Shown piece by piece: positions 539-4,534 of a stretch of DNA of 44,173 bases; within the stretch, counting starts at the first letter, position 1; every line of letters starts with the position of its first letter. This DNA comes from Bacteroidia bacterium (GTDB lineage: Bacteria > Bacteroidota > Bacteroidia > Bacteroidales > VadinHA17): the NCBI GenBank assembly GCA_026391555.1, contig JAPLEB010000096.1:1-44173 (forward strand), written 5' to 3'. Position numbers and translations under genes: made by a program. The notes under the pieces were generated by a model. The model was given only the letters and a program-made list of their open reading frames with translations. It did no database searches and was not told the origin of the DNA.

Positions 539-562
539 GTCGCACCATAATGGAATTGAAAT
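539..562 (+). repeat. Chimeric CRISPR repeat at the junction of the two arrays
   Basis: The first 8 bases (GTCGCACC) match the start of the I-C repeat and fall exactly on its 66-bp period. The remaining bases (ATAATGGAATTGAAAT) match the end of the 30-bp repeat. Both parent repeats share TCGCACC, a natural point for a crossover. An alternative is a degenerate 30-bp repeat, because the preceding bases CTTCCAG match CTCCCAA at 5 of 7 positions. Confidence 0.75.
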
Positions 563-954
563 TATGATGGGGTAGGGTTGACTGATACGTTCCTTACTCC
601 CAATCGCACCATAATGGAATTGAAATTTCGGTGGCTCTGTCTTTAAAGTCTTGTGCAGACCACTCCCAATCGCACCATAATGGAATTGAAATTTTGGAAC
701 ATTGTATATCCTGCGCACCAACGAAGCTCCCAATCGCACCATAATGGAATTGAAATCCCAGACCGGGCAAAACTAAAAGAATTGCAAAGTCCTCCCAATC
801 GCACCATAATGGAATTGAAATTAGAAAGAGATATGATAATATCTGACAACATGGCACACTCCCAATCGCACCATAATGGAATTGAAATATTCTATCACGA
901 AATGTATCAATCAATATTAGTATGCTCCCAATCGCACCATAATGGAATTGAAAT
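539..954 (+). CRISPR. Second CRISPR array with unrelated 30-bp repeat, fused to the first
   Basis: Six identical 30-bp repeats lie at 597-626, 663-692, 727-756, 792-821, 859-888 and 925-954. They begin CTCCCAATCGCACC and end ATAATGGAATTGAAAT. A seventh, atypical copy sits at 539-562. Spacers are 34-37 bp and unique. The repeat resembles the 30-bp class found with I-B or III systems, and the ATTGAAAT end suggests left-to-right reading. No leader separates this array from the first: the 34-bp spacer at 505-538 bridges them. The last repeat is not degenerate and is followed directly by a cas2 coding sequence. Confidence 0.95.
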
Positions 955-1268
955 TCAGGATCATGTGGGCCTTTGTATTCTTTGATCTTCCGACTGAAAC
1001 AAAAAAAGACCGCAAGAACTATGCAATATTCAGGAAGTCTTTGCAAAAAGATGGTTTTACGATGTTACAGTATTCTATTTATGTACGTCATTGCAACAGC
1101 CGGGAAAATGCAGATGTGCATATTAAAAGAGTAAGATCATTTCTTGCACCGAAAGGGGAGATTATAATTTTTACTCTTACCGATAAACAGTTCGGTATGA
1201 TGGAATTTTTCCGGAGCAGAGACCCGGCAACACGCCCTGATACACCTCAGCAACTAGAAATGTTTTGA
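942..1268 (+). CDS. cas2: CRISPR-associated endoribonuclease Cas2, type II-C lineage, start inside a CRISPR repeat
   Basis: This is a Cas2-family protein (ferredoxin fold, about 101-108 aa), the partner of Cas1 in spacer integration. The core begins MWAFVFFDLPTETKK, with the beta-1 strand and conserved Asp of the family, continues with GFTMLQYSIYVRHC and LTDKQFG, and ends QQLEMF. From memory of the family this pattern is that of Cas2 from Cas9 (II-C) loci of Bacteroidota, not of I-C or I-B Cas2. Two starts are possible: ATG at 963, or ATG at 942 inside the last CRISPR repeat, giving MELKFRIMW. I chose 942 because an R-I-M-W lead-in is, as I recall, part of native II-C Cas2 proteins. There is no cas1 or cas9 in the window and no room for a normal promoter, so the gene looks orphaned. 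Confidence 0.85.
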   Translation: MELKFRIMWAFVFFDLPTETKKDRKNYAIFRKSLQKDGFTMLQYSIYVRHCNSRENADVHIKRVRSFLAPKGEIIIFTLTDKQFGMMEFFRSRDPATRPDTPQQLEMF

Positions 1269-1327
1269 TAACTCTCACTTGCAAGTATTTGTTTTGTAAT
1301 AATTTAAGTATATCAGTTTTATATAAT

Positions 1328-1415
1328 AGGCCGTAGGCCTGAAATAAGTTAAAGCATGGGTGAAACCCTGCTTAAGGAGCTCCCTACTGACCGGTTAGCC
1401 CCGTAGTGGGCGAAA
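1328..1415. repeat. REP-like hairpin cluster left of the RAYT transposase
   Basis: Three short inverted repeats lie in a row: AGGCCGTAGGCCT (1328-1340), GCATGGGTGAAACCCTGC (1354-1371) and GCCCCGTAGTGGGC (1398-1411). The same hairpins, often in inverse orientation, recur at 1961-2042 and 2115-2309 on the other side of the transposase gene. The arrangement resembles the palindromic elements that accompany REP-associated tyrosine transposases. Confidence 0.8.
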
Positions 1416-1425
1416 TAAAGAAAGA

Positions 1426-1872
1426 TCAGAGATACCTCTCTTCATACTGAATACCATACTCATCCAGGAGATTCCTGTATTCATCAATTACAGATAACTT
1501 CTTATGATGCTCTTTCTGGGTTGTGATATACTTTTTAACTGCTTCCACTCCTGAACTGCTTAATGAGAAACCCCCATAACCATCCTGCCAGTAAAAGTTA
1601 TGATAATGCGCCCCCTTCGTTTTAATCCATTTTGATGAGCTTTTTTTAACTTCCTCTACAAGATCTGCAGGAGCCATAGTCTTTGGTAAGGTACATAGAA
1701 TATGCACATGGTCAGATGTTCCGCCAATCTGGATTGGATTTGATTTGTAGTTCTTCAGGATTCCTCCCAGATAGGAATAGAGTTCGCTTTCAACATCTTC
1801 CCTTATAAACTTAGCATTGTTTTTGGTATGAAAAACAATATGAACGTAAATTTGAACAAATGACTGCGACAT
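1426..1872 (-). CDS. IS200/RAYT-type HUH transposase (Y1_Tnp)
   Basis: This 148-aa protein belongs to the Y1 transposase family (single-strand HUH endonucleases of IS200/IS605 and the REP-associated RAYTs). The metal-binding HUH motif is visible as HVHIL near residue 54. The catalytic-tyrosine helix is KKYITTQKEHH near residue 114. An N-terminal strand, VQIYVHIVFHTKN, is typical of the fold. Full length is normal, so it looks intact. Both sides are packed with small hairpins (1328-1415, 1961-2309), the probable substrates. Lacking TnpB and a single clean pair of ends, it is better read as a domesticated RAYT-like gene than as a simple IS200. The start codon is the first ATG after an AT-rich gap. 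Confidence 0.9.
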   Translation of the reverse strand: MSQSFVQIYVHIVFHTKNNAKFIREDVESELYSYLGGILKNYKSNPIQIGGTSDHVHILCTLPKTMAPADLVEEVKKSSSKWIKTKGAHYHNFYWQDGYGGFSLSSSGVEAVKKYITTQKEHHKKLSVIDEYRNLLDEYGIQYEERYL

Positions 1873-1950
1873 GATTATTCCTTTTGATCAAATTTACTAA
1901 ATATTGGCAAAACAAGAAACTGTTTATGATAGAATTTGTCTGTTATCTGA

Positions 1951-3527: not shown

Positions 3528-3553
3528 TGTGTTTCTAATTTTTGATGGTTTCA

Positions 3554-3661
3554 TTAATTCCTCAAATCTTTCAATTTCTTTTCATCTGGAATAACTAACT
3601 CCATTTCCTTAATCATTTGAGAATTGATTGTTAACTGCTGAATTCCAGAATCCGTTTTGTG
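3554..3661 (-). pseudogene. Type I restriction specificity subunit HsdS, 3' stub
   Basis: The frame ending at the TAA at 3554-3556 encodes SGIQQLTINSQMIKEMEL followed by VIPDEKKLKDLRN. It resembles the C-terminal end of HsdS target-recognition subunits, where SxxxQxxIN precedes a short strand and a terminal helix. It opens only at 3661, after a TAG, and everything upstream belongs to a different gene (the HEPN stub in another frame). The stop lies just upstream of rhuM, as expected for an hsdS-rhuM operon. Confidence 0.5.
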
Positions 3662-3743
3662 CTAGTACGTTAGCCGCTTGAAAAGTTCTATAATCTGTTT
3701 CTATTCTTAACTTTGAGTATTCAAGCCGTTCTTCTGGTGTCAT
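3609..3743 (-). pseudogene. HEPN-domain protein, truncated N-terminal part
   Basis: The frame from ATG 3743 gives MTPEERLEYSKLRIETDY, then RTFQAANVLAQNGFWNSAVNN, before an early TAA at 3609 (44 aa). This is the start of the HEPN partner of MNT/HEPN toxin-antitoxin pairs. The family continues with RLYYA and the catalytic RxxxxH, which are missing here. Its ATG overlaps the MNT stop (ATGA), the normal operon coupling. The bases encoding GFWNSAVNN also encode DSGIQQLTIN of the HsdS stub in the next frame, so the join lies in this short stretch. Confidence 0.75.
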
Positions 3744-4057
3744 AATTGAATACCTTGAGAAGTTACATTGTGATAATATGGTGTAATATGATGTCTCGTA
3801 TTCCAGTCATTTTTGGAATATACAAAAAGTGATAGGGATTCCTCAGTTTCAAGTTCCAGGTCATAAAGGTGGTCACGTAATGATTTCTCTATCTGATATG
3901 TTACAAGATAATTAGTTAATACAAGAATATCCCAGTCCGAATCTTTTCTGGCATCACCACGAGCTATAGAGCCATAAAGGATTATTTGAGCCTGAGGATC
4001 AATATCAGAGATATTAAGCTTAATAAGATGCGATATATGTTCAGTTTTCTTATTCAT
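3740..4057 (-). CDS. MNT-type nucleotidyltransferase (antitoxin of a broken MNT/HEPN pair)
   Basis: This protein of about 105 aa has the minimal nucleotidyltransferase signature GSIARGDARKDSDWDIL, the GSx(10)DxD core that binds Mg-NTP. MNT antitoxins neutralise their HEPN partner, and some do so by AMPylating a tyrosine of it. I chose the start at 4057 (MNKKTEHISHLIK). An in-frame ATG at 4114 would add a 19-residue lead-in not seen in the family. The gene ends ATGA-coupled to the HEPN gene, whose product is truncated, so the antitoxin now has no intact toxin to control. Confidence 0.85.
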   Translation of the reverse strand: MNKKTEHISHLIKLNISDIDPQAQIILYGSIARGDARKDSDWDILVLTNYLVTYQIEKSLRDHLYDLELETEESLSLFVYSKNDWNTRHHITPYYHNVTSQGIQL

Positions 4058-4174
4058 TAAAGCAAATATACGATATCGGGGAATAAGTCCGTAAAATGTT
4101 TGATTAAAATGCACTACGGCGGATGAGTGAATGTAGTAAATTTTTAACTATTTTGGACTCATAACTATTTAAAA

Positions 4175-4511
4175 TCAAAAATCTAATGTGTCAAGCGGAT
4201 TTTTTATCTGATCGAAACACTTGGTGGTTACGTGGGTATAAATCTCAGTGGTCTTGCTGCTCTCGTGCCCCAACATCGCTTGTATGTAGCGAAGATCAAC
4301 TCCGTTTTCGAGACTGTGTGTTGCAAATGTGTGCCTCAGCGTGTGCATGGTTACATGTTTCTTTATCCCTGATTTAGCAACAACATCCCGTATCATATTC
4401 TGTATGCTGCGGGTCGAATATTCATCTCCACCCTTTTAAGATTAAGAGTATATTGTTCGGCATTTTTAAGTGAAACAGTTGTCATTTTTGCCTTTCCGCC
4501 CTTAGCATCTT
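4175..4511 (-). pseudogene. Tyrosine recombinase/integrase, C-terminal remnant with internal deletion
   Basis: The C-terminal catalytic part is clear: [30 protein letters not shown] and the terminal NPLDTLDF, with the HxxR box and catalytic Tyr of XerC/D-like phage and ICE integrases. Upstream, DAKGGKAKMTTVSLKNAEQ (the GAKGxK-type strand) is in a different frame. It jumps to [12 protein letters not shown], so about 20-25 residues containing the YLFxGQ block are lost along with the frame. The N-terminus is absent: the sequence is cut at 4511 where part of a type I-C CRISPR repeat begins. Confidence 0.85.
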
Positions 4512-4534
4512 CGTGCGGGTGCGTGGATTGAAAC
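4512..4534 (+). CRISPR. Detached right part of a type I-C repeat
   Basis: CGTGCGGGTGCG followed by TGGATTGAAAC is identical to the last 23 bases of the 32-bp I-C repeat found at 11-504. The missing first 8-9 bases are exactly what is left at 539-546, nearly 4 kb away. The following bases up to the SGNH gene may be the last spacer or trailer; TCGCACCC at 4559-4566 could be a residual repeat start. Confidence 0.9.

Follow-up and report, generated by a model that had tools for sequence, protein, structure and literature searches.

Remains of three types of clustered regularly interspaced short palindromic repeats (CRISPR) loci, I-C, I-B and II-C, lie side by side between the start of a contig from a Bacteroidia bacterium of the VadinHA17 lineage (GCA_026391555.1) and a conserved SGNH/GDSL hydrolase gene. 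The stretch analysed, referred to below as the window, is the entire 44,173-nt contig C125 (JAPLEB010000096.1) of this source genome (G000), and its first base lies inside the I-C array. G000 is a 3.5-Mb bin of 164 contigs, 96% complete and 4% contaminated. According to an initial annotation, a block at 547–4511 was enclosed by insertion or recombination within a single I-C repeat. The CRISPR-related features of the region and its right-hand boundary are listed below, with positions in the window.

11–538, plus strand: type I-C array (array 1), in which 8 perfect repeats of 32 bp alternate with spacers; the repeats are identical to those on the Csd1/Cas8c contig of relative G063.
533–562, plus strand: hybrid repeat, read as I-C up to 546 and as I-B from 540 by comparison with both parents, with the common core TCGCACC at 540–546.
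597–954, plus strand: type I-B array (array 2) with 6 identical 30-bp repeats, or 7 if the hybrid is counted, the repeat type being taken from G048.
942–1268, plus strand: type II-C cas2 that has lost 12 native N-terminal codons (PADLOC Cas2_II, E = 3.4e-45).
1269–2318, strand not assigned: gene for a RAYT (repetitive extragenic palindrome (REP)-associated tyrosine transposase)/Y1 transposase (1426–1872, minus strand) and REP-like palindromes, located after the cas2 stop and ahead of the II-C post-cas2 stretch; identified by homology.
2319–2481, plus strand: intergenic stretch of the kind found between cas2 and the array in II-C loci, plus one solitary II-C repeat (2436–2481), identified by alignment to relatives.
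4512–4534, plus strand: last 23 nt of the I-C repeat, an exact match in the same orientation as array 1.
4559–4565, plus strand: another TCGCACC, within the 32 bp that separate the I-C piece from the SGNH stop, a possible repeat scrap (chance about 0.0013 for this interval).
4567–5256, minus strand: SGNH/GDSL hydrolase gene, the flank conserved in the genus, identified by homology.

The eight identical I-C repeats start at 11, 76, 142, 208, 275, 341, 407 and 473 and are separated by spacers of 33–35 nt. Their type is given by G063, where identical repeats (C225:14657+) are found on the same contig as Csd1 (9567–11327). The orientation, read from the repeat, places the leader side on the left, presumably past the contig edge. 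Neither Csd1 nor Cas1 was detected in G000, a bin that is incomplete and in which the contig edge falls inside the array. As the initial annotation had noted, a ninth repeat starts on time, since GTCGCACC begins at 539, 66 bases past the start of the eighth perfect repeat; the sequence changes after these 8 bases. All 8 do match the I-C repeat, but 7 of them (TCGCACC) are also present in every array-2 repeat (CTCCCAATCGCACCATAATGGAATTGAAAT, six identical copies of 30 bp), so that only G539 and the repeat phase are specific to type I-C and the attribution of the whole 8-base piece to that type stands only in part. Because the unit at 533–562 matches the array-2 consensus at 28 of 30 positions, it qualifies as a two-way hybrid, and its first 14 bases all equal the I-C context. 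At the join, the I-C and I-B parents agree exactly over TCGCACC (7 bp) and at 12 of 14 bases in the extended comparison. The ninth repeat thus reads as an I-C/I-B hybrid joined at TCGCACC, and the natural reading of this left join is a crossover aided by short homology, the position of which would be resolvable only to 540–546.

Array 2 is assigned to type I-B because two genomes, G048 and G088, pair this type of repeat with I-B adaptation genes. The I-B repeat search covered 97 relatives and found array-2-like repeats, with 1–2 mismatches in 25, in 5 of them. In G048, Cas1b (TIGR03641, 428 bits) and an 87-amino-acid Cas2 frame, which is 71% identical to its counterpart in G088, are followed by an array with one mismatch to the array-2 repeat over 25 positions; G088 holds an array of the array-2 type and, on a separate small contig, cas4-cas1b-cas2. 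At the locus of the window, the I-B leader and I-B cas genes are absent, the left neighbour of array 2 being the I-C array and no Cas1 having been found in G000. The I-B spacers are likely to lack a leader of their own and to be readable only from the I-C leader.

The cas2 gene that follows is of type II, and the proposal that array 2 and cas2 form one native unit was rejected since the array is of type I-B. Its frame opens within the last I-B repeat, whose ATG GAA TTG AAA continues in frame into RIMW (MELKF-RIMW...); in native Cas2 proteins of relatives, MW is preceded by a segment of about 12 residues that in most cases ends in QYRI, and the window protein is without it. Matches to this gene are present in 6 of 62 genus genomes (G000 included), one of them a fragment (G073), and the four full-length genus genes are 83–88% identical to it. 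The genes cas9-cas1-cas2 are carried by G002, G071 and G028, where Cas9 scores above the cut-off, and G068 has cas1-cas2-array up to the contig edge. Among the matches listed, the named records with the closest cas2 genes are metagenome bins of Bacteroidetes/Bacteroidales. At least 540 public II-C cas2 loci were confirmed, and the upstream regions of 80 of these were examined. A cas1 hit ends at most 200 bp upstream in 77, while in two of the remaining three cas1 is farther off and the third, which lies near a contig end, shows no cas1 hit; an array (at least 3 copies) directly upstream of cas2 was seen in none of the 80, a few of which have little upstream sequence.

In the window, the type II cas2 stands beside a II-C repeat with the RAYT gene between them, and the order cas2-RAYT is also that of G002. 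The stretch at 2323–2481 aligns at 75% with the stretch of G028 between cas2 and the first repeat (L147 1025–868). Over 44 nt, the repeat at 2436–2481 matches those of G068 (23 copies) at 37–41 positions, of G071 (5 copies) at 41 and of G028 (12 copies) at 43. By these alignments, 963–2481 is read as a reduced II-C locus; neither the solitary repeat nor the type of cas2 had figured in the initial annotation. No cas9 and no cas1 were found in G000, with a Cas9 model that gave a below-cut-off signal in 4 of 14 control genomes. The Cas profile searches covered 5 genomes for Csd1, 8 for Cas1 and 6 for Cas9.

Some minor observations concern the same II-C elements. REP-like palindromes surround the RAYT gene at 1325–2318, and similar ones occur at several places in G008; two Rfam matches in this region (a microRNA and a small RNA family), both below the gathering score, were taken as chance or palindrome matches. 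In G073, a II-C cas2 tail (L148 242–358) is followed by a REP-like palindrome at the contig edge, and the I-B array of this genome lies beside SGNH. Elsewhere in G000 (C127:23855–23901; L149 1356–1402), a further solitary II-C repeat, 98% identical and with a partial copy just ahead, precedes by about 40 bp a reading frame labelled lipoprotein-like by eye. It contains TATCTTTG, which we take to resemble the Bacteroidota promoter box, and for this reason it may act as a promoter.

At the right-hand boundary, CGTGCGGGTGCGTGGATTGAAAC (4512–4534) equals positions 10–32 of the I-C repeat exactly, and the 23 bases previously reported as the missing end of the ninth repeat are indeed there. A search for this 23-mer at up to 3 mismatches gave 9 occurrences in the window, all exact, and none in 100 shuffles (mean 0.00). 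It is 32 bp from SGNH, and the adjoining integrase is truncated on its N-terminal side at the I-C repeat, so that the description of a cut-off integrase also holds. Outside contig C125, no I-C repeat was found in the G000 bin. The additional TCGCACC at 4559–4565 hints at one more repeat scrap beside SGNH.

The downstream flanks of SGNH were compared in relatives. The SGNH search covered 60 genomes, G000 included, and the comparison was confined to the genus, 10 hits outside it being left out. All flanks of the 24 SGNH-positive genus relatives were followed except that of G013 (a partial hit). CRISPR pieces (I-B, II-C or I-C) are present in 4 of 24 flanks; G073 entered through its array and not through the SGNH search (from which G060–G101 were otherwise absent), and the bias-free count is 3 of 23. 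In G008, a gap of 59 bp separates the end of the SGNH match from a II-C post-cas2 stretch with a partial II-C repeat; in G073, the terminal repeat of an I-B array is 42 bp from SGNH; in G020, I-B repeats are 5.8 kb away; and in G014, an I-C array is 2.3 kb away, with GDPD and asparaginase genes between. No empty site, with an uninterrupted I-C array joined to SGNH as the initial annotation would lead one to look for, was found in the flanks of the 24 relatives, the array of G014 being the nearest. A 13-nt I-B-like match in G032, 14 kb from SGNH (E = 0.041), was discounted. Within the genus, 7 relatives have I-C or I-B repeats, and in 3 of them these lie within 6.4 kb of SGNH, for which the rough chance is 2e-6, an estimate that leaves out G048 and G088 (array-2 genomes of other families), assumes independence though the genomes are not independent, and uses a distance chosen post hoc.

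Joins between CRISPR types are also found in other assemblies. In G048, which belongs to another family, an I-B array continues into the 3′ end of a II-C cas1 (its final 31 residues, at 65–68% identity and E = 1e-8 to 2e-9), and a frameshifted cas2 comes next (L089 8472–8990). In G064 and G016, the end of an I-C array adjoins a II-C repeat scrap, matching at 23 of 26 and 22 of 26 bases, respectively (0 of 500 shuffles each). I-C arrays with a distal II-C scrap are located at L092 1687–1820 and L094 9900–9990, and downstream sequence is similar in both genomes.

Taken together, the CRISPR locus beside SGNH is probably the product of a serial I-C, I-B and II-C succession that was cut down by recombination and deletion. 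Serial replacement is favoured because it accounts for the pieces and matches joins in other genomes. The joins would have formed in several events, by short-homology recombination or template switching plus deletions, and the right I-C piece would be a scar left by the terminal repeat of an I-C array formerly extending to SGNH. Several findings weigh against this succession. Serial turnover alone leaves the I-C sequence on both sides unexplained, the simplest account of which is entry of a block into an I-C array. No CRISPR piece was seen in 20 of the 24 SGNH flanks, some of whose contigs end early, and no close relative with intermediate steps was found. The arrays of G014 and G020 lie away from the SGNH boundary and the joins of G064 and G016 lie by a gene of glycosyl hydrolase family 9 (as tested in G064), so that the site is at best a region. 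The last six bases of the spacer before the left join match the start of the I-B repeat (CTCCCA) at 5 of 6 positions and those of the other seven spacers at only 1–3 of 6, which favours a join at short homology, yet chance would give such a match about 4% of the time over 8 spacers. Finally, the Cas1 search also failed in four other CRISPR-bearing genus genomes (G008, G020, G030 and G073), and the missing Cas1 may therefore be due in part to unbinned contigs.

Insertion of a pre-assembled 547–4511 block into one I-C repeat beside SGNH, with one base lost, is possible but doubtful. The left 8 and right 23 bases do add up to 31 of the 32 bases of the repeat, in the same orientation and with the right piece so close to SGNH, G014 does have an I-C array in the SGNH region, and entry into an I-C array is the simplest way to account for I-C sequence that flanks the block in a single orientation. 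However, a right piece that fits the left one within 1 nt is expected for about 3 of 32 random break positions, and a single insertion needs this fit to exceed chance. Between the block ends (GTCGCACC and CGTGCGGG), no bases are duplicated and one is lost, and no direct repeats of the att or target-duplication kind were found. The integrase at the right end is itself truncated by the repeat, and the II-C remnant of G008, 59 bp from SGNH, places the 'inserted' kind of material directly beside that gene. The block was not met as a unit either: none of 19 RhuM loci taken from a longer list (18 from relatives and 1 from G000, with at most about 1.5 kb per side) holds another block gene. Recombination within one repeat is borne out by the homology at the left join (7 bp exact, 12 of 14 extended). 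There is no such support for one event that enclosed the block as a whole, the bracketed DNA being composite (I-B array, 5′-truncated II-C cas2, RAYT gene, II-C repeat, scraps of restriction-modification and toxin–antitoxin genes, integrase stub). The likeliest reconciliation with serial succession would be that I-B, II-C and restriction-modification material entered an older I-C array reaching SGNH, with deletions.

Misassembly, in which unrelated contigs are joined through common repeat sequence, is unlikely. The fragmentation of the bin into 164 contigs, its 4% contamination, the contig start inside an array and the 25 bases that the right I-C piece has in common with array 1 would favour it. 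The exact overlap at the left join is only 7 bases, too short for the usual assembler overlap, and the sequence preceding the I-C piece does not match the repeat (TAGCATCTT versus GTCGCACCC), which argues against the usual overlap misjoin. In addition, the cas2 fusion is in frame (chance 1/3), and other cross-type joins occur in the separate assemblies of G048, G064 and G016. It is highly improbable that the 4512 piece was never part of array 1 and stems from a second, independent I-C array ending at SGNH, since the repeat variant and orientation of the piece are those of array 1 and the bin holds no other I-C repeat outside the contig, even though repeat scraps by conserved genes are known in relatives (II-C in G008, G064 and G016).

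A more specific version of the serial succession is tentative and rather doubtful, namely that cross-type replacement at one region proceeds via short stretches common to unrelated repeats, with the I-C leader driving the I-B spacers and a repeat supplying the cas start. Sharing of TCGCACC between I-C and I-B repeats is observed, and ATGGAA is common to the I-B repeat and most of the cas2 starts compared; that ATGGAA was the basis of the second (I-B/cas2) join is a guess. As to function, no Cas1, Csd1 or Cas9 was found in the binned genome, so that the region is most likely a fossil unless the sequence past the contig edge carries I-C cas genes.

Repeat recombination and turnover of CRISPR loci are known processes, and what is new here is that they extend across three types. 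A review on Sulfolobales describes repeat–repeat recombination inside one CRISPR array, with loss of array segments (PMC4390879). The present case is similar in that repeats are the recombination substrate and array segments are lost; it differs in that the partners are not of the same locus but two types of repeat with only TCGCACC in common, which yields a hybrid repeat and a composite array. A literature search on cross-type array fusion returned nothing relevant in the parts of the sources that it reached. With the type II-C loci of Bacteroidota (cas9-cas1-cas2-array), the window shares cas2, the post-cas2 stretch and the repeat, all matching genus relatives; unlike them, G000 has no detected cas9 or cas1, a single repeat is left at the locus and the 5′ end of cas2 is replaced by an I-B repeat. 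To our knowledge, replacement of one CRISPR type by another on the chromosome is little documented. Defence islands and genomic hot spots bring together several unlike defence genes at one site by a conserved gene. The region resembles them in holding several kinds of defence genes by such a gene, but its turnover spans three CRISPR types and leaves repeat scars, and several pieces are fragments. The joins are legible here in an I-C/I-B repeat, an I-B repeat opening a II-C cas2 frame and single-repeat scraps by conserved genes. Such scraps could serve to trace system turnover across a genus, and they warn that adjacent cas genes and arrays need not be one system.

The remainder of the bracketed DNA, between the solitary II-C repeat and the right I-C piece, is made up of the following features.

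2526–3554, minus strand: RhuM-family protein, candidate defence protein PDC-S05 (PADLOC).
3554–3743, minus strand: overlapping scraps in different frames, an HsdS-like tail (about 3554–3661) and an HEPN-like head (about 3609–3743), named by eye.
3740–4114, minus strand: MNT-family nucleotidyltransferase (homology and PADLOC).
4175–4511, minus strand: tyrosine integrase pseudogene, with a catalytic C-terminus (4175–4396; homology) and an out-of-frame upstream piece (by eye).

The contents listed in the initial annotation (array 2, cas2, RAYT, MNT and integrase stub) were all recovered, apart from the 'restriction-modification remnants'. The RhuM frame is open with no internal stop, and what is left of restriction-modification is at most the HsdS-like tail of about 35 amino acids; the label 'restriction-modification block' was rejected on these grounds. 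A Pfam search of the HsdS-like tail and the HEPN-like head gave no hit, their names being given by eye only. The N-terminal part of the integrase is missing, and the gene is not intact. Farther along the window, at 19594–41985, six tested open reading frames match the Pfam sulfatase family and form a sulfatase cluster.

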